The notes under the pieces: model-generated
Told to the model about the DNA's origin: nothing
Seen by the model: the letters and a program-made list of their open reading frames with translations, nothing else
Database searches by the model: none
Origin: Berberis thunbergii
Lineage: Eukaryota; Streptophyta; Magnoliopsida; Ranunculales; Berberidaceae
Direction: 5' to 3'
Length of the DNA: 64,000 nucleotides
Assembly: GCA_003290165.1 (NCBI GenBank)
Contig: QNQO01006267.1
Location: 432,044 to 496,043, forward strand
Part shown: piece after piece, positions 47,267 to 64,000 of the stretch
How positions within the stretch are numbered: the first letter of the stretch is position 1
Layout: every line of letters starts with the position of its first letter
Translations under genes and position numbers: made by a program

Positions 47267-47468
47267 CATTACACCAAAAGGCTTGATTAGCTACACAGAG
47301 ATTACCACAGCTCAAAACTGTTAGTTTATTTGCCACGGTCCAAAACCGTGGCTAGAGCCTAAAACCATCACTACAAAAAAGACTTGATTAGCTACACGGA
47401 GATGGCCACGACTCAAAACCGTTAGATTATTTGCCACGGCCCAAAACCGTGGCTATATCCTAAAACCG
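47267..47468 (+). mobile_element. Tandemly duplicated left terminus of a CACTA-like element
   Basis: Two adjacent copies of about 101 bp, the first beginning CATTACACCAAAAGGCTTG and the second CACTACAAAAAAGACTTG at 47369. Both continue with GATTAGCTACAC and have inverted GCCACGG...CCGTGGC motifs, the subterminal structure expected of CACTA elements. The right terminus was not found before 54030. The cargo to its right carries several gene fragments on the + strand. Confidence 0.6.
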
Positions 47469-47573
47469 TGGCAAATGAAAATGTTGTAAAAAACTTGGGC
47501 GGGCTTTTTGGTGCTCGCTTTTTTCCTCTCTCGTTTTACTTGGCGCTCGACGTAGAGCTCGATGAAACTCCTT

Positions 47574-47765
47574 CACACTCCCCTCAATCTCGTCATCTCC
47601 CTCATTGCTTCCTCATCTCGCCATCTCCCTCCCCGCTCTCTCCATATCTCCATCTCCCTCACTGCTCCCTCCATCTCGTCATCTCCCTCATTGCTCCCTC
47701 CGTATCTTCATCTCTCCATCGCCCTCACTGCTCTCTCCGTATCTTCATCTCCCTCACTGCTCCAT
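47574..47765. repeat. Minisatellite of CTCCCTCACTGCTCCCTCC units
   Basis: Imperfect tandem units of about 27-36 bp, built from CATCTCCCTCA(C/T)TGCTCCCTCC. It opens several overlapping frames rich in Ser, Pro, His and Leu that are not genes. Confidence 0.8.
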
Positions 47766-48118
47766 GAGATGCCATGGCTGGCAACGCCCTCTTCACCCAT
47801 TACAGGTACTTCTTCTTGACATAAAATCCTATCTTTCATTGCCCATGAGACCAAACTTCTCAAAATTTCATTATTTGGAGAGAAATTTTTCAAACCCCAT
47901 TGCTTGAAACTGCGTTTTTAGGTCTAATTCCACATACCCATTTGTTAATTCTCTTTTATTTGCAGTATAAATTTGTGTTTTTGAATACCAACTTTTTAGT
48001 TTTTTAGGTTTAGATGTCTAATTCATCATTTTTTCATAGACTTCTTTAGCCCCAAATGTCATTTTTTCTTTGATCTCTTGACGGCATTCGGCATTTCAAA
48101 GTTGGTGTTGACCCATCT

Positions 48119-51100
48119 ATGGGTTCTTCTACTCAAAAGAGAAGCCATTTCTTTGCACTTGTTGTTGATGGTAGCGATCCAGCTGATTGGGAAAGTGTAC
48201 GAAAGATGATTCAAGAATGTTCTTTTAAAGGTAACAAACCAACTGACTTCTTGATTGGTACATTTTTCTCTATATGTGTTTTAAACTTAATTTTTATGAT
48301 GATTCGTATTTGGGTTTTGACCAGTTATTGATAAATTGAAGAAAATATAATGAATCTTCATCTTTGAGACACTGCAAAATGATTTCGGTTGAACTAAGAA
48401 CCTCTGTTATCTTTGTGGTTTGGTTGTTAAAATGTCTTTGGAATTCATAAAAAATAACATCTTCATTTTTGTTTCCAAGTCATATTTTGTGATCCTTTTG
48501 GAAGATTATGAGATATAGTACCATTTTTTTTGCTTATTCAAGGCAATGGGAAACAAAGATTTGTTAAAACATGCATAACGTTGAGTGGCAATTCAATAGA
48601 CATGAAGTTGATTGTAAGCCGACAATGTTGGATATCTTGTTACAGATGGTTGCTTGTAAATTATAACATTTTGGTATGTATCAGTTTCATGCAGAGAACT
48701 TGTTAAAGAGAGCTTTGCTATATATGCGGTTTATCACTGGCTAGGATGAGTTCTTCAGACAATCATCCAGTTATTTCTTGTAAAATGATGAATAAGAAGT
48801 TCACCTTAATAACTCAGAAGCTGAAATCAAATAACATATCAGTGTGGTGGGCATGTGGGATTGACCTTAAGCAAGATTTTCAGCATTAACAATTTTCCGA
48901 TTGTTTGATGAAATTCAAGTTAAAGGGAGTAGTGTTGAAATCTTGTCAAAAGTGGATACTTGTCCAAAAGTTGGCTTGAGATTGAATTTGGGATCTGCCA
49001 AATTAGTTGCAAGTTGAAACTGGACTTTTTCAACTGGTTGTTCTCAATCTTGTGCACTAGCTCAATCAGCCCTCTGTATACTGGTTGACAATGGATGTGA
49101 ACTTTGGGGGCCTATCATACAAATAATTGTTAGGAGATTATAAATTGTAGTTTTAGAGTAATAGTCAATTCAATTAGATCTTGGTTTTCTCAATTTGGGG
49201 TTCTCTGTGTTGTTCTCGGTTGTGATAGTGTTTAGAGTTGATTATGGGTCACTCTAGATTGTATTCTTTTTGTGATCACTGCATATCTGTTATGATCAAT
49301 GCGGTGCTGCATTATGATAATTTTTTTAGGCATAAAAAAACAGTTGTTTTCCCGATTATCCTTTTATTTGAGCGCAGTGTTGAGGATGACAACTGCAAAA
49401 AGTGCTTTGAAGTTTCTGGGATTGGCAAAGGAGAAAGAAATTGCTTACTCAGACGGATTATCCTCCAATGAGGTGAATTCCTGTAATTGGTTTTATATAG
49501 AATAGTGAAATACACTATCATCCTGGTCACACACTATCTTACATGTTGAGTCAACTCTTTTTTTTGTATCAATGCAGGTGGTTACTGCTGTTCCAACTGA
49601 TCTTCCTCCATCGTTATCTTCAAAACAAGGTCTGCTTTACTTGTTCTGGTCTTAATTTATTGGGTATTTCTTTACCGTTAAAAAGATCGATAAACATCAT
49701 TCTTGTTAGTTAAAATGATAGATAACAAGAGCAACACTGGTGAAGGAGTTGACGAAGTTACAATGGAGAAACAAAAAACAGATGACAAGTTAATGATGAT
49801 GGAGAAGAGCAAATCACATAGTTCAGAAGACTATATCAAATCATCTGTCAGTGAGGTGAGTGCCATGTAAAAAAAAATGTAGCAACTTTTGACGACATTG
49901 TGATATATGCACATTAAGTTATTGATGGTTCATGAACATTTTTCTTTTCTTGTTTTTGATGCAGGTAATTATTGTCTCTTCTGCTTCTGATGTTCCATTA
50001 AATCCTGTAAACAAAGGTCTGATTGAGCTCTCACAGGTTTTGATTCGACATTCTTCTTCTTGGCCTTTTGATAAGCATCGCTTGTAATCAAATTCATAGG
50101 TAATGACTGCACTTCTGATGAAGCACATGACAAGCAAATTAAGGTTAAAAGAGCAGCTATGAAGAAGATGACTAAGGAAGATCTAATGAAAGAGGTGAGT
50201 ACTTACCTATCTTCAATCCATGTCAAACTGCAGATCAGATAGTTTTATTGGAATTTTTTTGTTATTGTTGGTTTACCTGAAACATGGTATCAAAGTCAAT
50301 CTAGAAAAGGATCATTTCAAATTCAGATAAGAGTTACTTGTATCAGATCTGTTAAGTTATAGTAAAATTATGTATTCAATGTTTGCATGTTCTTATTTTG
50401 TTAGATTGTAAAACTAAAAGAGCAATCCCGGAAGATGAAATTTGCAATAGATGTGATTGAGACAGAAGAAGCGTGGATGAATTCAGAGATACAGAAAATG
50501 CAGAATGTAAGCAGTATACTTATGTTGAAAATATTATGTTTATGTTTTAAGTAAGATTCTACATTCATATACCTTCACCCCCTGGAATCTTTCGAATGAA
50601 GCCTTCCTATAGCATGCTAGACCCATTTATCAACTTGTGAAGGTGCATCATATTTCAGCTTTGGAGTCGCATTGTTTGAATTATTTTAGGGAAGAAAATG
50701 AATTGAGCTAGACACATAGTCCTATTGATCAGTAACCAAATTTTTTGTTAAATTTCTATATGTGCTGAAAGTCTTAACATGGTTAGTGATGATGTAAGTT
50801 GCGAATATTAGGGTGGAATAAGGCAAATTTACGTATTGAAGTGTTGGATATACCAATTCCAAGTGCATACTGGGGTACCTTATATTCAGGGTTGAGTTAT
50901 CAGGTTTAGCTAATTAACACAGACAAGGACAGGCTAAATATTTTTTTATAATTTATTTGCATGATTTTGTTCCATGTTTTTCACATGAAATTTTATATTG
51001 CACAAGAAGATAAAATACATGTACGTTGCAGATCATACTTTTAACTTGGTAACTGTCATTACCTATTCAGCAATCTAGTAACAACTAACTTGTGTTTGTC

Positions 51101-51312
51101 ACACAAATTTTGTAATCATTTTGCACTAAGCTTATGTGTACTTAGAGCTAAGTTTCTTGAATGTGCACATGAAATTTGTTTAAGGGGACCAAAGAAGCAC
51201 TCTGTTAACTTGTTTCTTTTCTGGTTTACAGGGAAGACCCCTGATGGATATAATTCTTATAGATTACAACTTGACAGAAATGACTGGGCTTCAACTTCTC
51301 AAAAAATTGAAG
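48119..51312 (+). pseudogene. Type-A response regulator (ARR8/9-like) receiver-domain fragments
   Basis: Exon-like pieces follow the receiver domain in order. 48143-48231 reads HFFALVVDGSDPADWESVRK then MIQECSFK, like the HVLAVDDSxVDRKVIE start of type-A ARRs. 49378-49471 reads MTTAKSALKFLGLAKEKE. 51232-51312, in the frame opening GRPLMD, reads DIILIDYNLTEMTGLQLLKK, which contains the phospho-acceptor Asp and the MTG motif. The first Asp-Asp pair is altered to VD, and the C-terminal part with the conserved Lys is missing. Between them are well-bordered exons I cannot place (49578-49629, 49710-49855, 49965-50015, 50100-50194, 50405-50506); the last two encode a Lys/Glu-rich probable coiled coil. 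It cannot phosphorelay as it stands. Confidence 0.55.
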
Positions 51313-52319
51313 GTAAACATGTGGTTAGCCTTATCGACATATCTGACAAAAATTTACCCATTAGAGGATATATATTTTCTTCAAATATTTGTATCAAATT
51401 GCCTGTAAAGATGAGGACTGAAGAGAATGGTATTGATTAATTAGAAAACCAAATTTGATCTAAAAGAAATCTTCTTGTTGTCATCTTAAGTAAATTTTAT
51501 GCAATCCTTAGTTTGAATCACTCCTTAGTTCAACAACACCATGTTAAGGAGATCCAAATGAGTAAAGATAAAGACACATCCTTCCAGCATCATTGCCAAC
51601 TCATAGATTGCTGTGGTGGAATCAAAGTATCATGTAGCTGTTGAATTCTGTTTCATTGATGAAGATCAATATTCTTCTGTTGTATGTACAGATAGAGAAT
51701 AGTGAAGCTGGTAACCACGGTGGTAGTTTTGTTGTTTTTCGGAAATTTCAGCATATTATACATACACAGATAATAACTTGACAGAGAAATGGAATATTAG
51801 ACCATTACAATGGTAATTGCCTTGTTATCAACAGTGAGAATGTCAGAGTTCTTTTCACTTTGTCAGACTGTTAATAAGGTTTGTGTGAAATAGTTAATCC
51901 TAGGAGATCTCATATGTACTTTGCTAATCATTGTCCCAAAGACATTAAAGTACTTAGCAGATAAACATCCCAACATTTTGTAGGAAGACACATTGTTTCC
52001 ATTAGAATTTAGAAGTATGTTCAAGGCTGGACCTCTTCTCTTCTTCCGCCTTTTCCCTCCTTGTACCAGTACCTCTCACTTCACTATGAGAAGCTCTTCT
52101 TCTATGGAGGAGAGTTTTTCAATTGAGGTGGTGTGATGGTAGCAATGGCGGAGTTGAAGTGGTGTGAATAAGAAACATTGAGGTTGAATTTCCATGTAAT
52201 AGGCCCTTTAAAATAAAACACTAGAGGTTGAATTTCCATACACAAATTTTCCTGATACAATTGAGTTTTTATCATCTGAGTTTTTATCAGATGGAAACTG
52301 ACATCCGTATATGTTGCAG

Positions 52320-52370
52320 GTTGCTGATCAGTTTTATAACATCTTGCACAAGTACTGTAACAAAGTTCAG
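52320..52370 (+). pseudogene. Isolated exon, unrecognised
   Basis: A clean 51-bp exon (TTGCAG acceptor, GTATGT donor) reading VADQFYNILHKYCNKVQ. The family is not recognised. It lies between the response-regulator pieces and the AP2 fragment and is probably another captured exon. Confidence 0.35.
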
Positions 52371-52420
52371 GTATGTACTACCACTATGTGGATACCTTGA
52401 AATCCCTCACTCCCTCAAGT

Positions 52421-52772
52421 GTCTGAAGATGGGGTAGGAGGTTTTAGGAACTGGGTTTCAAGGAATTATTGTCAAGAAATGGAGCAAAAGTTGGATGGGG
52501 GGTTCATGGTGGGTGGTGATGAAGGAGGAGGTTCTGGGTCAGTCTGTGCAATGGGGTATGGAGATTTGCCATCACTTAGCTTGTCAATGAGTCCTGGATC
52601 TCAATCAAGTTGTATTACAGCATCCCCACCCCAGCAAATTTCCCCAACTGGAGGAGGAAGAAATGAATGTGTGGTGGCTATGGAGACAACAAAGAAGAGA
52701 GGGTCAGGAGGGAAGGTGGTGGGACAGAAACAACCAGTTCACAGGAAGTCCATAGACACATTTGAAATTTTA
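52421..52772 (+). pseudogene. AIL6: Captured AINTEGUMENTA-like (AIL6/PLT3-type) AP2 factor fragment
   Basis: The open frame reads GGFRNWVSRNYC, MGYGDLPSLSLSMSPGSQSS and QKQPVHRKSIDTF. These are hallmarks of the region just before the first AP2 domain in AIL5/6/7 transcription factors (NWVSR, SLSLSMSPGSQSSC, VHRKSIDTFGQRTS). Homology is cut exactly after IDTF, before any DNA-binding residue. The frame itself is intact. A DNA-binding factor cannot be made; a peptide from a chimeric transcript is possible. Confidence 0.82.
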
Positions 52773-53000
52773 AATGTTGTGATTATTAGATGTTTGTTTA
52801 TTTATCCAAAGATCTCTTGTTAAATGAAATTATCTTAATTGCAAGTGCCTATATTTTGATGCCTATTTGTATTTCCTGCAAATAATTTTAACTGCTTGTA
52901 AAAAATTATGGATCCTAGTTAAAAATTTGTCTGGTGAACCTTTATGATGTTAGTATATTATTTCTTAACCATGGTTCCTTGACTTCACTCTTGATGACAG

Positions 53001-53462
53001 ACGATCTTCCTGCCTGTTGTTGGGCTTGTTGACCCTGACAAGCTAAAGCCTGGTGATATGGTTGGGGTGAACAAGGACAGCTACCTAATCTTGGATACTC
53101 TTCCTTCTGAATATGATTCCCGAGTAAAGGCTATGGAGGTTGATGAAAAGCCAACCGAAGATTACAATGACATTGGAGGATTGGAGAAGCAGGTCGGGTA
53201 TGCTTCATAAAATTTCCTTTCTAAGCATCCATGGTTTAGATTATGAACTCTTCTTTTTATTTCGATACAGATCCAAGAACTTGTTGAGGCCATTGTTCTT
53301 CCTATGACTCACAAGCAAAGGTTTCAGAAGCTAGGAATTCGCCCTCCAAAAGGAGTTCTTTTGTATGGACCTCCTGGGACTGGTAAAACATTAATGCCTC
53401 GTGCATGTGCAGCACAGACTAATGCCACTTTTCTCAAGCTAGCAGGTCCCCAGCTTGTGCAG
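53001..53462 (+). pseudogene. RPT5: Captured RPT5 (26S proteasome ATPase 6A) fragment, two exons
   Basis: Exon 53001-53192 reads [20 protein letters not shown] through DIGGLEKQ. Exon 53271-53462 reads [28 protein letters not shown] (Walker A) and [14 protein letters not shown]. Both are exactly 64 codons with correct splice sites and an intact frame. One substitution changes the conserved MARACAAQ to MPRACAAQ. The N-terminal coiled coil, Walker B and the rest of the AAA domain are absent, so no working subunit can form. RPT5 normally works in the base of the 19S particle. Confidence 0.93.
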
Positions 53463-53983
53463 GTTTGGTTTAAACCTTGATACTTTCTATATTGATGTTG
53501 CATTCTCTATTACTGTTTTAATCTATATTACTAATTCCTAAATCCTAACTATTTATATCTTTGTTCATAACTTATATAATTTTCATAAAATATATCCTGT
53601 ATATTTAGAAATACTTATTTATTGATGACAGAGATCAACTGTATATTTTCATTTAGTGTCACTCTTGTCTTCAAATTTTTACATGACTAAAGCAATGGTC
53701 TCAGAAGCACCCATAACACCTAAAGAGTCCAAAGAAATGTTTCCAAACCTAGAACTAGAATTGTCAAAAAATTAGAGTTAGGATGTGTGTCTTATTCAAG
53801 AACCCTTGAATAAGCTTTTGGCTTTTAGGATCTGTAGCAACCTATAAAATCAATTGACTTGTCAATCAAAGAGATCGCTTCTATGGTGAAGGTTCCATAT
53901 AGTCAGTCCTTGGTTCACTGTCGGTGCAGAAGTGTTAATTGTATCTCCTTTTCTTGTACTTAACGTTTACATTCCCAGGAGTA

Positions 53984-54033
53984 GCTTCTTGAGACATACA
54001 TATACACTTGCTTCTTGAGACATACATATACAG
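53984..54033. repeat. Tandem duplication at the edge of a hAT element
   Basis: GCTTCTTGAGACATACATAT followed by ACA occurs twice in a row, the second copy ending at the left end of the hAT element at 54031. Confidence 0.85.
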
Positions 54034-54686
54034 GAGCAGCCCCCCTCAATTTTTAAAATATTTTTAGTATATATATTTTAGTCTTAAAAAAAATTTATTA
54101 TATAATGTAGAATACCATATCAAACTTGTTTATACAAATATTTCAATATGTCTTTGTTGGTGTAGTGGTTGTAGGTTTACTATTTTTGGTAAAAGACATA
54201 TTCTTTGAGTGCATTTTTATTTTATTTTCAATACAATTTTATTAGTAATTACAAACATTATTATAGAATTCAATGAAAATATATACCATTAGCCAACTCG
54301 TACAAAATTTGAGCCGCATTTAAACTATTTTTTTCTATGAAATTGTATTATGATCATATTAGATTCGCAAATTTAAAAAAAAAAAATTAGCTTCACCTAG
54401 ATACAGATACCATTATTTTGCGATATTAGTTATATATTCTAATTATTATGCTCGTTTGCTCCTTGCTAAGGTTATCAATAGTCACCTTATTTTGGCTTTA
54501 AATTGGACTACATTAGATCTAATTTGGTATATGCAATGTATTTTTGATAGTTGTATTTTTTTATTAGTTACTAGCTCAGGTAGAAATAAAAAATTTGGCT
54601 TTACCATTGATAACTACTATTATCAACTAATAAGTATTTTTCATTTCACCCCTCCCCCCTCGACTAAAATCCTGGGTCTGCCCCTG
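54031..54686. mobile_element. hAT element, unfilled relative of 18282-21652
   Basis: It begins CAGGAGCAGCCCCCCTC and ends CCTGGGTCTGCCCCTG. The interior (TTGGTGTAGTGGTTGTAGG, then TATCAACTAATAAGTATTTT) matches the element at 18282-21652 without its LINE and nested MITE. The right flank, ATCTCCAT, is callose synthase coding sequence; the left flank does not show this octamer. The left junction has therefore been rearranged after insertion. Confidence 0.72.
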
Positions 54687-54731
54687 ATCTCCATCATACT
54701 TGCTGGAAACAAGGGCAACATTGAAGGTTGA
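54687..54731 (+). pseudogene. CALS9: Last callose synthase codons and stop
   Basis: Directly after the hAT terminus the frame reads ISIILAGNKGNIEG and stops at TGA (54729-54731). GSL10-type callose synthases end in the same way (ISIILAGN...). This is what remains of the final exon; the roughly 350 residues before it are missing. Confidence 0.85.
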
Positions 54732-54856
54732 CAAACCTCATTCCAGCTGCTGAAGAAACAATAGAAACAAAATTGAGCATTCTTTGGGACTCTACTTAAT
54801 TGTACATATCTTTATCCCAAATCAGAAAATCGCTCTGAATTTAAGTTTTATCCTTG

Positions 54857-55225
54857 CACTACAAGAAAATTCTGATTAATAGCGTTTAAGAAACGCTATG
54901 ACAGCCGGAGCTATAATAGAAACTGGGGCTATCATAGCATTTTTGAAACGCTTTGGTAGGTATATTATTTATAGCGTTTCAGAAACGCTATGGTAAGTAT
55001 ACATAGAATTTTTATTTTATTTTTTTTGCTATCAAATGACTTTTTATTACATCTTATAAGTTTTATTTCTATAAAATAAAAATTTTAATGTGTCAAACTT
55101 AAACATTTCCATGAATGGGGGCAAAATAATGTAATTAATAAGATAATGTATTACATTGAGTCATAAAATCTATCAAATAGTATCTCAAATACAATGACAC
55201 ACACAAACTTTAATATCGTCAATGC
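54857..55225 (+). mobile_element. Left terminus of a gene-fragment-carrying CACTA-like element
   Basis: CACTACAAGAAAATTCTG at 54857 is a standard plant CACTA terminus. It is followed by subterminal copies of ATAGCGTTT(A/C)(A/G)GAAACGCTAT in both orientations up to about 55000. No right terminus was found in the window, so the element, if intact, extends past 64000. Fragments of at least five host genes follow, all on the minus strand. Confidence 0.65.
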
Positions 55226-56313
55226 CTATTCTTCTGTGACTTCCTGAAGTTCTTCCTCTAAGCCATGGTTCCAATGCTCCATGTCCTTCAGCATCAGAAC
55301 CCCTTTTTGGAGCTCCATTGTAAGGGCTCTCTACTCTTGCTGAGATTGAGCATGCATATTCTGCAGAACTTTGACAGTGGCTTCAGCCTGCATGGAGCAC
55401 AAGCTCACTTCTTCTATGCGCTTATGGAGTCTCTCCAACTATTCCTGCTTCCCGGAAAGTGCTACTTTTACACCTCTGTCTTCTGTATCAAAGCTTCCAC
55501 CTCTGACTATAGAGACTGATTTTCTTTTTCCATCAAAAGATGCTTCTCTTGAGCATTGATTAATCTTGAGCCAGCCGCTACAATCTCGCTTTCAAGCCTT
55601 TTTCTCTCCTCTTTAGCAATAGACATCTCAGCTTCAAGATTAGATATTGTCTCCAAACAACTCTGGTACTGAAGTGCAGCAGCTTCCTTCTCTTCAATCA
55701 GTTTAGCAATGTCTTGCTTTAGCAATTCTACTTTATCAGCTCTCTGGCTAATTCTTTCAGCTTCCACCTTCGCATAAGAGAGTTTGGATTCAAGATCAGA
55801 TATGGTCCCCAAACACTGCGACAAAGTATTTTCAACTCTACTTTTCTCACCTTCCCTTCTGAAACTTTTGCATGGTGTATTGCACCCCTGCTTCTGATCC
55901 AAACAGATCATTGAGTTGTTTTAACCATCTTTTGCTTGTTATGGATTCAGACTCATCAGTGTGTGTTCCGTTCCTACTAAAAGCATGCTTATGTGATTCA
56001 TCAGGGTCAACCAGTCCACGAAGTGGATGTGATGTCTCAGGTGTGTGTGGTTCAGCCTCAGCAGCAGAAGAGCTTGATGGTGACTCGTCAGGCAGCATGA
56101 AGGGAACTTGTTTGGGAAAAGCTTCTGCCGTGGTTCGATGGGCTTCGCATGATCATATCTTTCTGCCAATGCACGGTATGCTCGATAGAACTCCTCAACC
56201 AATTTCATAAGTTCTGGGCGTTTCTTATACTACGTTTCTGCCCTTCTTGCAAAGGAATCTGCATCTTCTTCTATATATCAGCCTGATCATTGCTTTGACC
56301 TTGGAATCCATAT
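55225..56313 (-). pseudogene. NET1: Captured NETWORKED1 (NET1, NAB domain) fragment
   Basis: Read on the minus strand from an intron acceptor at 56314, it gives MDSKVKAMIRLI, a one- or two-base break, EEDADSFARRAE, a stop, then YKKRPELMKLVEEFYRAYRA with LAERYDH. This is the C-terminal half of the actin-binding NAB domain. The linker (AAEAEPHTPETSHPLRGLVD and SKRWLKQLNDLF) and the start of the coiled coil (LESKLSYAKVEAERISQRAD and VLQNMHAQSQQE) follow. Plant NET1 proteins link actin to membranes. The first NAB exon (WWWDSHISPKNSKW) is absent, and several stops and frameshifts are present. Confidence 0.9.
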
Positions 56314-56974
56314 CTGTTAGAACAGAGAGAGTATGTTTTAATTAGTGAATAATTTATGTATTCTACTGCAAGTAAGATCAGCCTCAAACTTACATACATC
56401 TAAAGAGTTGGAAATGATAAACTATTAACATAAGAATGGGAATTAGAATAAATGAACACAATACACCATCCATTTCTTCTCATGGACAAGCAAGCATGAA
56501 TCTATATCCCAAGATTAACAATGTTATGGCCTGGCATTCTTTACCAGTTTCACCAATGTTTAACTTTATAAGAATAATGCTTGTGTCATGAATCATGTCC
56601 TTTCATTCATGCGCAAATCACATTGTTGATACTTAGTATAGAAATAGTATCCAAGTCTTCACTGTTCCAAAAGAAGTGGAAAATTGATTCATAAGACACA
56701 TATTTCACCATAGGCTAAGCTAATGTAAAGCATTTACCTAGTGCCACCAATCATATGGTAGAGCGTGCACAAATAAGTCATAGCTAAATGATATCTTGCT
56801 ACCCAAGATACCCAAAATCATAAAAAAGGACAATCACGAGGATAAAATTAGATCAGAGCAACTCGTGTAGCTGTCCATCAAAGAATCTTTTGGGTTTGTA
56901 ATGGATCACATGCTGCGAACATTCATTTCATTAAAGCACGCCTTGTTATTTGTTAACAAAATTCCACCAAAGTA

Positions 56975-57494
56975 TGTTGGAATATTAAACACACTCTAAT
57001 TATTCATGGGCCTAAAATTGCCCATGTACTTATCCACGGTAGTACCGTGTGAATTTACGGTGTAGTTGTACGATTTGTACCCACCGATATAGTTATAATC
57101 TCACGACTCCGCTTGATATATGATTGGATTCACCTTCTCTACAAGTTCGAGCTTTTATAGAGTTGGCAATTTATCATGGTATCAGAGCATTGGTCCTCGG
57201 AGGTCGTGGGTTTGAGTCTCGTCCAGCGCAATCGCTGCGAGAATTTTCAGTATCTTCCTCGCGTTTGCGCTGAGGAGGAGTGTTGGAATATTAAACACAC
57301 TCCAATTATCTATGGGCCTAAAATTGCCCATGTACTTATCCACGGTAGTACCGTGTGAATTTACGGTGTAGTTGTACGATTTGTACCCACCGATATTGTT
57401 ATAATCTCACGACTCCGCTCTCGCTTCCGCTTGATATATGATTGGATTCACATTCTCTACAAGTTCGAGCTTTTAGAGAGTTGGCAATTTATCA
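56975..57494 (+). mobile_element. TRIM retrotransposon (terminal-repeat retrotransposon in miniature)
   Basis: Direct terminal repeats at 56975-57176 and 57283-57494 begin TGTTGGAATATTAAACAC and end GGCAATTTATCA. The primer-binding site TGGTATCAGAGC (tRNA-iMet complement) follows the left LTR at once, and a purine tract, GCTGAGGAGGAG, precedes the right LTR. A 5-bp duplication, AAGTA (56970-56974 and 57495-57499), flanks it. The internal part is only 106 bp, with no coding capacity. The right LTR has an extra 10 bp (CTCTCGCTTC). Confidence 0.95.
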
Positions 57495-57721
57495 AAGTAT
57501 TTATCCTTTCATCCTATCTTACTAGATTATAGTTTAACTTTAAAGTCGCAGACATTAGAAATTTGAATGTAAATAAACCTGCTACTTCTTCATGGTCTAA
57601 CAGAAACAATTTCACTGATGCATTCAACTATTGATTATTAAAAAAATACCCTGAAAGACATTTTATAATGCCAATAACATTTGCAAAGCAATAGAGAGTG
57701 CATCAAGTGACATATTCTTAC

Positions 57722-57872
57722 CTCTGTTGATAAGCATTGCAACTGTCAATGCCCTGATATCATGTGTATGAGCTCTCACATAACCAACATACACCCACTT
57801 CTTTATTCTTTCAGTGGAAGACTTATCATTACCAGATCCGGATGCATCACTGGAGAATTTATATAGAATAAC
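57722..57872 (-). pseudogene. UTP4: Captured UTP4/Cirhin exon
   Basis: One clean exon (acceptor CTATAG, donor GTAAG) reads [20 protein letters not shown] and [20 protein letters not shown] then TVAMLINRG. It matches the WD40 region of the U3 snoRNP protein UTP4/Cirhin (VGxVRAHTHDVRALTVA), which works in nucleolar 18S rRNA processing. The other exons are absent, so only a peptide within a chimera could be made. Confidence 0.8.
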
Positions 57873-58479
57873 CTATAGAGAAAAAACTTAGGAGTTTAGT
57901 CATTCATCTGTAAAACAATCATAGCAACATATAAATAAATAAATAAAACAACGTCAATAATTTTATTAGTGCACTAGAAGTTTCTTAATTACAACTGAAT
58001 GAAACCTCGTCCTCGTGCCTAAAGAAGCTTAACTAGAAAATTGTCATGATCTATTAGAATCTGTCAGGTTGTGTTTCATGTGTTGATTACTTGAGTATAT
58101 ACACTTTGAATCATACATTTAAGACAAATGAACAGTTCCATTATGTAAATAAATAAACACAGGACAAATGAATCATACATTCAAGACAAATGAACAGTTC
58201 CATTATATAAATAATAAACAACAGAGAGAAAGCACAGGACATTTAAGACAACTTTATCTTAGATGAATATAAGATATGTCATTGACAAGGGAAAAACTCA
58301 ATTCAAAATTCAATCCGACATACAAATAAGAGAAAGCGCAGGGCATTTAAGACAACTTCATCTTAGATGAATATATGATATGACATTGACAGAGGAAAAG
58401 TTCATCACAAAATTCAATTTGACTAACAAATAGGGGAAGTCAGATTCAACTACCTGACCATCAAACTTGCAGAAAACAC

Positions 58480-59606
58480 CCTATTATGGCTAGGAGCAAC
58501 TACCTTCTTTACAAGAAACAAATCTTACACCAATCAAAGTCACCAACTCCGAACCTGCAAAGTAAATTTACATTGTCGTGAACTGCAAGAGTATCCTAGG
58601 GTAGCAAAAAAACAGAAAAGGAAAACCTAATTAAGACAAAATTTTCAACATAACCAACCTCATCAATGTCAAGACAAAAGCAGTTCGATGCTGGTGATTA
58701 AAGCCAAGAACTCTAAAGGATTTCCCTTCACCTTCCATCAGAACTCACCTCTTCCATAGCAGCAAGGTCATCCTCATCAACAGACACCATCTAAACGTAT
58801 ACCCACAAAACATAGTAAATGACATATTACCATCCAGACAGATATTTGCAATTAACCTTTCTAAAACATAATTTTTGCAATCAACCAGTTTTAATTAAAA
58901 ACTTCAGTTTTTGTCCATGACTGTTAAAAACTATTCTTAAATTTCAATCACAAGAAATCCAACATTCTTGAGCAAGATATCAAGTCAGATTGACACTGTA
59001 AAGGTGGTCAAGAAAAGACCTCAGAACCTACTTACGGCTTCTAATGACAGAAAATGTGAGAACATACCTGCTTACGACTTCTATTTCCCTTCACCAAAGC
59101 AGTAGTCTCTTCAATTTGGTGAACTTCATATCTATCCCTCAGCAATTCTTCCCAATAACATTTAGACTCTGAGATACTGTCGATTGGTTTATTTGCAATG
59201 GATGCTTTCTGCGCTTCCTCCGCAGCTGCAGCTCCCACTTCATCTATAAATTCAAAATTTGCCACCTAAAAGAAGTAACAAGAGTGTCAACTCATAAATC
59301 ATAATATTAACAATACTACTATAAGAAGAATGAAATGCCATATTATGCTAGAGAACACATTTGTTGTTCAGGGTGCCGTCATACCAATAATTACAAGAAC
59401 AATTTTTAATCCTTTTTAATAGTCATGGTGAAATGTGGTTGAATGTTGAAACCAAAATAAGAAACAGATTTTGTGATTATTTGTAGTGCCTACATCAGGT
59501 CAGTACCAAATGTAAAACTAAAACACTTATGGTGGTCAATCATATACCTTTGCCTTCTTGAAGGCATTGTCACTGGTTGTAAATTGACCCCACGTCTGTT
59601 TATAAC
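58480..59606 (-). pseudogene. PKL: Captured PICKLE (CHD3 remodeller) exons
   Basis: In minus-strand order: 59548-59606 ends DNAFKKAK. 59068-59265 reads VANFEFIDEVGAAAAEEAQK through CYWEELLRDRYEVHQIEE to RSRKQ. 58659-58790 reads MVSVDEDDLAAMEE, then in another frame MEGEGKSFRVLGFNHQHRTA. About 58490-58554 reads FGVGDFDW. This is the region after the helicase in PICKLE, a nuclear chromatin remodeller (YWEELL, RSRKQ, EEDDLA and RSFRVLGFN blocks). The acidic stretch between EDVSSDGE and LMEGEG has been deleted, fusing two frames. No ATPase, PHD or chromodomain is present. Confidence 0.9.
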
Positions 59607-59736
59607 AGTTGTACTTGGGCATCAAGCATCTTAAAAAAAAAAGTCTCAAAGCATGTTCCCTTTCTCCTAACTGCACATACCCACAATCATGTATTCCATG
59701 TCACATCATTTATATTTGGGGACTTCATGGTACCAA

Positions 59737-60400
59737 CAGTGTTCTAAAAATCGACCTGAGCGGCTTCCTAGGCGCTAGAAGGTGGAAAACCGCCCAGATT
59801 AATGGCTGGACGGGCAGTCTGGGCGGTTCTGGGCAGTCTGGGCGGGATCTAGGTAGGTCTGGGCGGCCTAGACGGGGTCTAGGAGGTCTGGGCGATTTTT
59901 AATTTTTAAAATTTTTTAATAAAGATAATTGTGTTCTTATTTAATTTTTCTTTCCTATTTTTTAAAATAAACTATTTAATTTTTTTTTATTCAGTATATG
60001 CCTAAATGTAGCAAAGGATGATTACTTAATGAAATTCTCAAAGAATCTGCCGGTACCAATTTTACTAATGTAGATTTTATCAAACATAACTGAGGTTATT
60101 CATGCAATTTGAAGAAAATAAAAGAGTACACAAATTCAAATTTATATAAAGTACCCATCATGACCAACTTCAGTCATTTGAGTTTTAATAAATTTTGTTC
60201 ACGATTGTTAATTTTTCATGTTTTTAAATTTTGCATATGTATATTGGCATTAAATTGGATGTAATTGATAATGTATTATGCTTAACTTTGTAAATTATTA
60301 AAGTTATAAATTTATAATACAAAACCTAAGACCACCTAGGCCTCTGGGCGCTAGGCACCTGCTCGCCGCCGCCCAGCGCCTAACGATTTTTAGAACACTG
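59737..60400. mobile_element. hAT MITE with CAGTG...CACTG ends, copy 2
   Basis: CAGTGTTCTAAAAATCG and CGATTTTTAGAACACTG are perfect inverted ends. The octamer GGTACCAA (59729-59736 and 60401-60408) is duplicated. Length 664 bp. It is similar along its length to 28998-29645 but in the opposite direction. It lies between the PICKLE and NDP kinase fragments, so it probably entered the larger element later. Confidence 0.9.
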
Positions 60401-60999
60401 GGTACCAACATAATGAAGTGTATCCAAACCAAAAACTTCAAGTGAAGAAAGAGGTGATACCAATGTGGCCAATGGATCAAGTTCTTTCATCTCTTCTAAA
60501 TTTCATTACTATGATGAATAACAATTGTTAAAATTCATCTATTTTATCGATTAGAAGTAACATAGCCTGAAAACATAATGGTATCTCCCTTTTACCACAA
60601 AGCAGATTATCGTACAAGGCAGGGGTTTCAAGGGAACCCACAAAGTATAGTTTTTCCAGAAAGCATAATTGGATTAGCCACTTATATCCAAATCAAAACA
60701 ATTTGCACATTAAACGAATGCAAGCAACTCCCTATTTTCCATTGCCTACCAGTTTCTACATAACTAGTTCTATGCCCTTTTATTTGACTTGGATGAAACG
60801 AGATAGTGACCACAGTTCCAAGATGCATTTCCCCTAGATTCACCCGGGTTACCACATTTCATTACTAAAATCCTTGTTCTTCAATAAGAGACGAGGCATT
60901 ATTCAAAAGAATAGGCAGTATGGTTCTATAGAAAACAGAAAAAGACGAATGCTATTCTAACAACAACCATGTGAAATATGTTAAGAACAGTGATAATAC

Positions 61000-61755
61000 C
61001 TTCCTACAACGACAACGAGGTCACCCCTGATTGTTCCTGGCTCTGATTTCTGTGGGTCAGTAGCTCCAATAAGTTTGCGACCATATTTTATCACTCCTTC
61101 ACCTTCCCAGACCTAAAAAACAAAAACTTGTTTAAAGACTCACAATGCGGTAGAAACTAAAAGAAAAAAAGGTAAAGCCTTCATTTTCCTCACCATGGCA
61201 AGCATAGGGCCAAAACTAAGGAAATCACAGAGACCATTAAAGAAAGGCCTTTCCTTGAGATCATGGTAATATTTCTTGACAAACCCTTGGAAGAAACACA
61301 ACTTGATGGCAACTAGCTTAAAGTCTTTGTGTTCAAATCGGTGCTATCATTATGAACCTGTAAGGAAAAGAAAAACTATTAGGAAAGGGAAAGTTCTAAG
61401 ACAAAATGAAACAATATGAAAGAAAGCCAACTAGCATCCACAATAAATAACGCAGATCAAGTTTTCACGAATTGCTGAAAATCAGAGTCTTTAAGATGTG
61501 CATTTTTTCCCCTTTCTATTTGCAATACTGAGTTGTGCAAATCAGCAGGACATGAGTTTTGAAGACTTTTGCTTGCATGGATTTATCAATTCCCATTACA
61601 CACACCGTTATGCTTGATGAAATTCACATACTACAAAACAATATCATACTACAAAACAATAAAAGTGCACTGAAGGTACTAAAAAATCAGAAGGATTTTC
61701 TTACCAGACCTCTTTGCACACCATCAGGTTGAATTGCAATAAAAATTTGTTCCAT
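61000..61755 (-). pseudogene. NDPK1: Captured nucleoside diphosphate kinase (NDPK1-type) exons
   Basis: Three exons in order on the minus strand. 61705-61755 reads MEQIFIAIQPDGVQRGL. 61194-61357 has, after a frame break, [12 protein letters not shown] sequence and [20 protein letters not shown]. 61000-61112 reads [20 protein letters not shown], then [20 protein letters not shown] kinase transfers gamma-phosphate between nucleotides in the cytosol. The last exon with the active-site His (NxxHGSD) was not found, the usual MIKPDGVQRG is changed to AIQPDGVQRG, and exon 2 has lost its frame at the start, so it is dead. Splice borders are kept. Confidence 0.92.
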
Positions 61756-62444
61756 CTGAAGCGAGCAGTGAGTGTATGTTACAAACAGCGATAAAAAAAT
61801 AAAATAAAAATAATAGAACAAGCTGCTCTAAGTTGGAAATGATGTCATCAATGGTATTTGGAGTACCTCTGCAGCATGTGCTCTTGATCTTGTAGCATAT
61901 AAACTAGAGGAAACAAAAGCAAAATCAAAACTTGAAGAATAAAAATATTGCATAATGTAATAAGTACATGTTAAAGATGCCAGTTTTGTTAAGAGAGAAA
62001 CTAGTGAAGAATAAAATAGCTTCTGATACACAATGAAAAGACTACAAGTACCCTACCAAATAATTGAAATGGACAAGCAAAATGATTCCTAACAATGAAG
62101 AAATCTACGAAAAGGTAGGTCTGTTTGAAATATGCTGGGGTTTGCATCTCATTATCATAGAGAAGGAATGGCAACCATATTGACACATGCTGGATTGTGG
62201 GTTTCATAATTGGGCATTCAACCAAGGCTACAAATAATTATACACCTAGAACATCCATTATGAAGAGATAGCATGCTATTATATACTAAACATCTCCACA
62301 GCAACAGTTTAATTAAATATATATACTCCATTTGTAAGAGTGTTGGACTGAAATCTTTTAGGATACCATAGGAGCAACTATTTAGTACAGTATGAAATCT
62401 AATACAGCATAATAGTTGGAAAGATAAAGATGCGGTAGGAAAAC

Positions 62445-62575
62445 CTGCTGTGGGAAGGGCAAGTGCTCCTGAATACCATCCCCGAGCTGCATTCTTTGCA
62501 TCCTCCCTTGCATAAGAGGATTGGGATAGTAAAGATCCTCCTGTGGGAACCAGACCACTCAGACACTCCAAGTAT
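62445..62575 (-). pseudogene. Captured exon, unrecognised, fused behind GH31
   Basis: A 131-bp exon-like block with acceptor CATGCAG and donor CAG|GTTTTC. All three frames are open for long stretches (for example SGLVPTGGSLLSQSSYARED), so the true frame is uncertain and I do not recognise the family. It stands directly against the broken GH31 exon. Confidence 0.4.
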
Positions 62576-62583
62576 CTGCATGA

Positions 62584-63005
62584 AAAATCACAAGGAATAC
62601 CCTTCTTGCGAAATGTCTTGGACACTTGCAAAACATACACAATGTTCAGATAAACGAACAAATGTGGAGGAGAAAGAAATGTGATAGTAGGCCATAGCCA
62701 CAGTTTATTCTGAAACAACGCAGAATGCACAATTATTCTTTATTCCTTTTTTCAATTAACAAAGTCATATGAACTGGTATTATTTAAGACCATCAGATTG
62801 AGAAATTTTTTATATGAAAAACAAGAAATATGTTTATTTTATATAAATTAGTGAAATATAAAGCAGCAGGTAGTCACTTCTCTAGAGATTAAAGAAATTT
62901 CATAATTGATGAAATTACTCACCTCAAGCACTCTAACATCAGAGGCATAGCTCCATCGACATTGATGATAGCCAAGAGACCACTTAGGAGGCATAAATAC
63001 AGTTC
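62584..63005 (-). pseudogene. Captured GH31 alpha-glucosidase (heteroglycan glucosidase-like) exons
   Basis: Exon 62923-63005 reads GTVFMPPKWSLGYHQCRWSY then ASDVRVLEV. The next piece, 62584-62625, reads VSKTFRKKGIPCD. Together they give the GH31 block FMPPKWSLGYHQCRWSY...TFRxKGIPCDVIWMDIDY, but it stops just before the IWMDID segment near the active site. The acceptor before VSK is GCAA instead of GCAG. The protein most like it is the plant heteroglycan glucosidase At3g23640. The catalytic residues are absent. Confidence 0.88.
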
Positions 63006-64000
63006 CTGAACGTAAAATTAAAGACATCAAGTTCAGGAAGCAAACCACAAACAAGAACAAAACATGGAGACTACAACTAGGCAAACCGTGATTTATACAA
63101 CAATTAATAGATGGAAGAATCCCAATGAGTTTCTATTTCTTATGTAGTTCAAACAAGGTGCCCACATCCATAAAAAGGAACTGAGGTTCAAAAACCTATT
63201 TGTTGCTTTCCCCTTAATACGATGGATGTCAAGAGGAAACAAATGAATAAAGCAACCCCTATTTAAACAGTTTATTGGTTTGTTTTCAAAATTCCTATTG
63301 TTAAGAAATATGCTTTCGCATCACACCTGAACACTTCACCCCTATTTCTTGGGCTGCTTGTACATTTATTTTTTAACAGAAAACTTGTGTATTGTACATA
63401 CAAGTAACATAACTTCTTCAAAGTGTTTGCTTAGTTATCTATGATATACGAAGTCAACACCCACTTAACTCAAAATGACATGGTTCTCTCTGGTCTCTAC
63501 TTAAATCTTACATGACATGTTCTGAGAATCTCGAGCTGGTTACACTGTTTCCAACATTTATATAAGAAATGTAGATCCAAAATCAATTAGTATCCACACT
63601 TACATTATTTGTCTTATAATATATTCTATTTTACGTCGTTTTTGTTTCAAGTTGTTTTCCATGATTCTGCATCATCAAAATTGAACCTAGGAAATAGGCG
63701 CAACAAACCTAACTCACATCTTGTTCTTGCCATATACTGCAATGCAGTATTTCAAATATTTATATTCTCTAATTTGTGTTTTTTCTTTTGATTTTTAGCC
63801 CAAGCTAAGAACAGGTAAAGCACCCTTGTTGTCAAATTGAGATCATCTAACCCATGTAAACTCCCATTTTTATGATATATCATTTAAATAAATAAATAAA
63901 CAACATCTGAGTTAACATTGATGTTGATATCTGCAAATAGCCCAAAACGAAAGTATGAAAAAAGTAGTTAATAGACAGAAAATACTTGGATTCAAGTGTC
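63006..64000. other. No recognised gene to window end
   Basis: AT-rich sequence, possibly still inside the CACTA-like element that starts at 54857. No CACTA right terminus (...GTAGTG) was seen. Confidence 0.4.

Follow-up and report, generated by a model that had tools for sequence, protein, structure and literature searches.

The window analyzed here, a 64,000-nucleotide stretch of Berberis thunbergii DNA, is the terminal 64 kb of contig C6243, and nothing lies further right on that contig. Its last 9.1 kb hold the left part of a CACTA transposon, here called element A, which carries pieces of several plant genes in a single direction. The sequence-only reading, an earlier description of this DNA made from its letters, had placed fragments of six genes on one strand behind a CACTA terminus, between 54857 and 63005. 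Searches of the 2.24-Gb assembly showed that a second contig, C142, was 99.2% identical to the window from 51953 (the start of the fetched stretch) to 63997. Because the match takes in the flank to the left of the CACTA end, C142 represents this locus on a second contig. Pairs of contigs with equal or near-equal scores were frequent among the genome matches, and this pairing suggests that both haplotypes are present in the assembly. The features of element A within the window were as follows.

54857-64000, minus strand: left-hand 9.1 kb of CACTA element A, truncated where the contig stops; complete on C142:777298-789968
54857-54869, plus strand: left terminus CACTACAAGAAAA; the TTG before it at 54854-54856 is the 3-bp duplication
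54879-54991, unstranded: subterminal direct and inverted repeats ATAGCGTTT / AAACGCTAT
55226-56320, minus strand: NET1-like fragment (KIP1/NAB domain and coiled coil), frameshifted; PF07765, 4.7e-10; copies at other loci
56975-57494, plus strand: element within the cargo resembling a terminal-repeat retrotransposon in miniature (TRIM); two long terminal repeats of about 200 bp, 92-97% alike by piece; AAGTA on each side
57742-57872, minus strand: presumed UTP4-like fragment; no Pfam or PDB match; copies elsewhere
58749-58790, minus strand: PICKLE-like fragment, second exon; AG/GT borders
59068-59265, minus strand: PICKLE/CHD-II-like fragment, first exon; PF06465, 2.1e-19; AG/GT borders
59737-60400, unstranded: hAT-like miniature inverted-repeat transposable element (MITE) within the cargo; 17-bp perfect terminal inverted repeat; GGTACCAA on each side as an 8-bp duplication
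61000-61112, minus strand: NDP kinase exon 5 piece; PF00334, 5.7e-9
61194-61343, minus strand: NDP kinase exon 4 piece; best PDB match 1w7w
61705-61755, minus strand: NDP kinase exon 3 piece; GT donor
61867-61902, minus strand: NDP kinase exon 2 piece, degraded; donor retained, AG absent at the expected acceptor
62445-62584, minus strand: NDP kinase exon 1 (ARGWYSGALALP), read by eye; copies elsewhere; no Pfam match of its own
62585-63005, minus strand: GH31 glucosidase exon piece, intron and exon (62923-63005); PF01055, 1.3e-6

The full length of element A on C142 was 12,671 bp. The element continued about 3.5 kb past window position 64000, and position 63005, where the earlier description stopped, is not its end. 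On C142 it opened with CACTACAAGAAAATTC and closed with ATTTGTGTTGTAGTG, with TTG on each side; the right end read ...TTGTGTTGTAGTG followed directly by TTG, which is the matching terminus and duplication that the sequence-only reading had expected beyond the contig. The left terminus with subterminal repeats reported at 54857 was also present: the 13-mer CACTACAAGAAAA had 6,904 exact occurrences in the genome in comparison with 197 for the reversed control, and ATAGCGTTT-type repeats were found at both ends of the element. Both ends of element A, and both ends of a second insertion described below (element B), terminated in CACTACAA, with the inner terminal bases matching only partly. When the flanks were joined without element A, the alignment to C1020 and C9618 ran through the junction with 74% identity, marking a paralogous empty site (TTTTATCCTTG/GGACAAAAACTTTCAAT aligned with -TTTATCTTGG/GGAAAAAAA-TTTCAAT, the slash marking the junction). 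Homology to C1020 around the insertion reached about 130 bp to the left and, in pieces, about 1.9 kb to the right. The frame just before the empty stretch is presumably the C-terminus of a callose synthase, which would put the insertion point of element A immediately past a gene, or gene copy, of this kind. Directly left of element A, 54032-54728 holds a MITE-like stretch (CAGGAGCAGCCCCCC ... GGGTCTGCCCCTG), and after it come the last codons of the frame that we take to be callose synthase.

Element A is a Pack-CACTA, the known kind of non-autonomous CACTA element carrying gene cargo: it had terminal repeats, the 3-bp duplication and subterminal repeats, and no transposase was detected. Its cargo matched protein families and would derive from host genes. 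The Pfam scan found no transposase family among the 154 open reading frames (ORFs) of at least 36 amino acids in element A, about 0.5 kb and the outermost ends lying outside the scan. Pack-MULEs make target duplications of about 9 bp, and Helitrons are not known to make any. The 3-bp duplication was seen at two unlike sites, CACTA termini and subterminal repeats were present at both ends, and the empty site closed at the CACTA ends. These results argue against capture by a Helitron or a Pack-MULE with an incidental CACTA end, although both are known carriers of gene fragments (PMC2773423). We rejected such an origin, to which we give hardly any credence, on the 3-bp duplication and the CACTA termini; Helitron or MULE ends inside the cargo were not searched for.

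The cargo was examined with a strand-blind Pfam scan of ORFs of at least 36 amino acids over window positions 55230-64000 and L026:1-2620. The 64 minus-strand ORFs matched eight Pfam families, three of which were weak coiled-coil noise; PF07765, PF06465, PF00334 and PF01055 were matched by the minus-strand pieces, in line with the sequence-only reading. From its right end leftward, the cargo consisted of a terminal frame that was left unassigned but has a GT donor, a GARP-type piece, GH31, an auxin response factor (ARF), GH31 again, NDP kinase (NDPK), PICKLE, UTP4 and NET1, and all these pieces shared one direction. Six sources had database matches, and the likely seventh is the presumed UTP4-like piece. 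Within the window the number of sources is five (NET1, UTP4, PICKLE, NDP kinase and GH31) instead of the six counted earlier, because the supposed separate gene at 62445-62584 reads by eye as NDP kinase exon 1 and was merged with it; the other named pieces stood, that of UTP4 as a presumed identity. We take 57742-57872 to be UTP4, although Pfam and PDB searches gave no match. The splice borders, earlier said to be mostly kept, showed GT at all 14 donors located and AG at 11 of the 12 acceptors located; the edges were picked by eye, and one acceptor word could not be found.

Beyond the contig end, the GARP-type piece, which we take to be KANADI, matched PHR1 (5e-6) and LUX in PDB and had no Pfam match. 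The GH31 exons there matched PF01055 at up to 1e-15 and alpha-glucosidase II in PDB, and the two ARF exons matched an ARF in PDB (1e-10), with weak Pfam B3 matches (0.015, 0.11). The intron of the second GH31 block duplicated that of the first (95% over 309 bases). The PICKLE-like cargo also matched PF06461 (2.8e-8), and the PICKLE-like fragment had no match in PDB despite its Pfam match. NDP kinase exon 1 (ARGWYSGALALP), presumably of NDPK3, abutted the GH31 sequence at 62584. NDP kinase exon 4 had 139 matches in the genome, of which at least 13 were near right ends of the family of element A and the weakest resembled ordinary paralogues; the NDP kinase cargo has itself turned into a repeat family. 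Two other transposons were nested in the stretch. The TRIM-like element sits inside the NET1/UTP4 part and contains at 57177 the word TGGTATCAGAGC, presumably a primer-site-like motif. The hAT-like MITE was missing from element B, with a partial copy in L007.

Element B, on C7708, was 9,956 bp long, lay in flanking DNA unlike that of element A and had its own 3-bp TTG duplication. Beside the left end, the sites of elements A and B had only ATCCTTG (including the TTG) in common. The shared parts were 94.6% identical over 7,879 aligned bases in a row recount that omits two within-element repeat blocks and one short end block (unfiltered, 94.5% over 8,316). Element B repeated the order GARP-GH31-ARF-GH31-NDPK of element A between its own ends, so that further copies of the unit, on which the sequence-only reading had made its case depend, do exist. 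Cyclin exons (PF00134, 4.1e-22; PF02984, 2.2e-10), also in sense, filled the slot in element B that most of NET1, UTP4 and PICKLE occupies in element A. The NET1 match on C396 scored the same as that on C7708, and C396 is probably the other haplotype of element B.

These data bear on the possibility that the fragments are several elements inserted independently side by side. Among the matches listed, the PICKLE part was found in at least 27 other places and UTP4 pieces gave at least 44 matches, including element A; with the two nested transposons, this could suggest a patchwork of separate insertions. However, one pair of termini and one duplication enclosed all fragments, the order GARP-GH31-ARF-GH31-NDPK was found at another site in element B, and NET1 and UTP4 recurred jointly in the contig pair L029/L030. 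We consider independent insertion very improbable and rejected it on two grounds, the single pair of ends and element B; together with the one duplication and the empty site, these place the fragments in one unit, as the sequence-only reading had proposed.

Elements A and B, nine members of the family and the neighboring CACTA element C shared a module of up to about 380 bp with pyrimidine-rich repeats at its end, and the cargo diverged right after this module. From its composition and conservation, the leader-like module may represent a promoter with a 5' leader. E2F-like and TATA words were dropped as leader signals, being missing from some copies.

We analyzed whether the uniform direction reported for element A extends to its family, and it did so in the sampled members. 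The right-end 19-mer had 419 exact copies in the genome, in which both haplotypes are probably counted, and none in the reversed control. The 3 kb inward from the first 20 right ends listed were grouped by cargo, and 12 representatives were scanned; eight were omitted as near-duplicate or A-like (L038, L039, L040, L041, L043, L048, L053 and L057). Stretches common to several representatives were trimmed, and ORFs of less than 40 amino acids were excluded (36 for elements A and C). One representative, L046, had a terminus of the left type, toward which it was scored. The 134 sense ORFs matched 14 Pfam families at 0.01, with some models overlapping, including protein kinases, CTP synthase, Ca-ATPase, 6PF2K, ARF, DHHC, alpha-mannosidase and WD40; the CTP synthase, 6PF2K, mannosidase and ribosomal L14 matches were not assigned to individual ORFs. 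Of ten ORFs chosen by eye, seven matched a family and three had no match. The resulting ratio of sense to antisense, 13 to 1, has a P of 0.002 if about 13 independent donors are assumed. With the eight donors of elements A and B, the ratio of 21 to 1 gives P = 1e-5, and with the weak Integrin match added, 21 to 2 gives P of about 7e-5 (calculated by hand), independence being assumed in both.

NDP kinase matches within 7 kb of 100 right ends listed (of 419) were in sense in 13 of 13 cases compared by eye; one of these is element A, and the rest are largely one amplified arrangement. The other end was checked at the first eight places of the left 13-mer, five of which share the left end of element A. 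Pfam matches to cytochrome b561 and CMAS, placed by eye in L004 and L006, were in the predicted direction. By eye, L001 (Ca-ATPase) and L005 (AlkB-like) also agreed with it, and L008 was ambiguous.

Element C lies to the left of element A; its terminus and a fragment near it are listed here.

47369-47763, plus strand: terminus of neighboring CACTA element C (CACTACAAAAAAGACTTG); different terminal repeats, same leader-like module
52998-53477, plus strand: 26S proteasome ATPase fragment, two exons; PF16450, 6.8e-8; PF00004, 1.2e-9

The proteasome ATPase fragment, which would belong inside element C, and weak response-regulator pieces pointed away from the leader-like end of that element. A weak CapC match (0.005) was also obtained in the scan of the element C region, with its strand not assigned. 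A second end of element C was not recognized in the window, L026 or L037. The subterminal repeats of element C were of the CCACGG type (window 47369-54856), and an AINTEGUMENTA-like plus-strand stretch, identified by eye, was located beside it. To the right of element A, two plus-strand frames were read by eye, one NOI/RIN4-like (L026:5286-5564) and one fibrillarin-like and frameshifted (L026:7774-8476).

Several observations weigh against a one-way family driven from a leader. Element A was selected for its uniform direction, and the 13 to 1 ratio is the fair test for that reason, the family sample being the only independent one. Some of the cargo counted could fall outside the sampled elements, whose far ends were not found. 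Antisense matches were not entirely absent: the 112 antisense ORFs of the 12 representatives matched one family (RFX5_N, 5.7e-4), and the 90 plus-strand ORFs of element A gave a single weak match (Integrin_alpha, 0.0026). In the left-end check, L002, whose left end is unlike that of element A, had a Kelch piece in the opposite direction, and an RVT_3 match, its position not placed, was also on the opposite strand. Because of these two matches, the polarity is not valid for every CACTA family in the genome. The module itself was shorter in L043 and L051 and had an interruption in L045, and its leader status was judged from composition and conservation alone. A GH31 acceptor present in element A was lost in element B (one case). 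The search for parent genes proposed earlier listed copies of the cargo, by DNA searches and by a protein search (139 matches), none of which was identifiable as donor, and no intact donor gene was found. Stops or frameshifts were present in several NDP kinase copies that were read, and a protein function of the cargo is unlikely because of them.

With these points taken into account, we consider it probable that element A is a 12.7-kb Pack-CACTA with pieces of six genes and a likely seventh, all in sense to the leader-like end, and that spliced chimeric RNAs, as predicted from the DNA, would start from that end. The fragments may have entered successively, through the fusion of two insertions close to each other into a hybrid element, and the transposase would be supplied in trans. 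Merging of neighboring insertions has been put forward in the literature as the mechanism of Pack-CACTA capture (PMC13317346, PMC8903248). The pyrimidine-rich end would act as promoter with a 5' leader. Cargo antisense to this leader would tend to be lost, as RNA from it might disrupt the chimeric transcript or cause silencing of donor genes that are essential, and such a filter would leave one-way stacks.

The chief rival explanation is that the polarity comes from directional capture, through insertion or persistence in genes in one orientation only, so that trapped DNA is always in sense and the leader need not be a promoter. Neighboring Pack-TYPE elements are often co-oriented (12 of 15 hAT pairs and 12 of 13 PIF pairs; PMC8903248), and members that differ in cargo had the same polarity, as did element C, whose terminal repeats are different; these observations would fit directional capture. 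Directional capture alone, however, leaves the pyrimidine-rich leader unexplained as a conserved, constant module, and we regard it as rather unlikely. Beyond the promoter-leader reading of element A, it is possible, and we propose it tentatively, that the family is a mobile gene-assembly platform, in which a promoter-leader end stacks exons in sense, swaps cassettes and lends its leader to a CACTA lineage with other ends, each copy being a ready-made chimeric unit.

Pack-type transposons have been invoked as exon shufflers, and the literature covered does not treat the direction of their cargo. The family of element A is a test case for exon shuffling in plants: its right ends number in the hundreds, it has a common leader-like end, and the cargo sampled is nearly all in sense, which makes gene assembly by transposons countable. 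If the polarity reflects selection against antisense cargo, the family would gauge what antisense RNA against essential genes costs the plant.

CACTA elements with several captured fragments have been described before, as have spliced chimeric transcripts (Zabala and Vodkin 2007, PMC1947982). Tgm-Express1, at the soybean wp locus, is a 5.7-kb CACTA element which, like element A, carries multiple unrelated gene fragments (five host genes, including introns), and these are spliced as extra exons into chimeric transcripts with host gene exons (PMC1947982). That element lies within the host gene, and the transcripts described for it came from amplification between F3H exons 1 and 3. The Tpn1 family of Japanese morning glory comprises 339 CACTA elements with a mean length of 7,081 bp, conserved ends and captured host sequences; 3-bp duplications are found in nearly all of them, and chimeric transcripts have been reported (PMC5105172). 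A putative autonomous partner, TpnA1, is known for Tpn1 and none for the family of element A, and cargo polarity is not mentioned in the parts of that paper covered. The Jozin-type CACTA elements of Chenopodium show a positional regularity, with captured gene fragments in the 5' region upstream of ORF 1 (PMC8978399); they differ from element A in having kept the transposase and in carrying few fragments each, and the parts of the paper covered do not discuss direction. Published Pack-CACTA and Pack-TYPE elements resemble element A in being non-autonomous, with CACTACAA termini and coding cargo of several loci, and the parts covered state no rule for cargo direction relative to the ends (PMC8903248, PMC13317346). 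The literature searched (open-licence papers) gave no instance of a polarity that extends across a family and is tied to a common leader-like end. In contrast to Tgm-Express1, element A, which is known from DNA alone, has a length of 12.7 kb, six or seven sources, a leader-like module of its own and a polarity that extends across its family. Pack-CACTA itself is already known, and the family-wide polarity is the new and unusual part.

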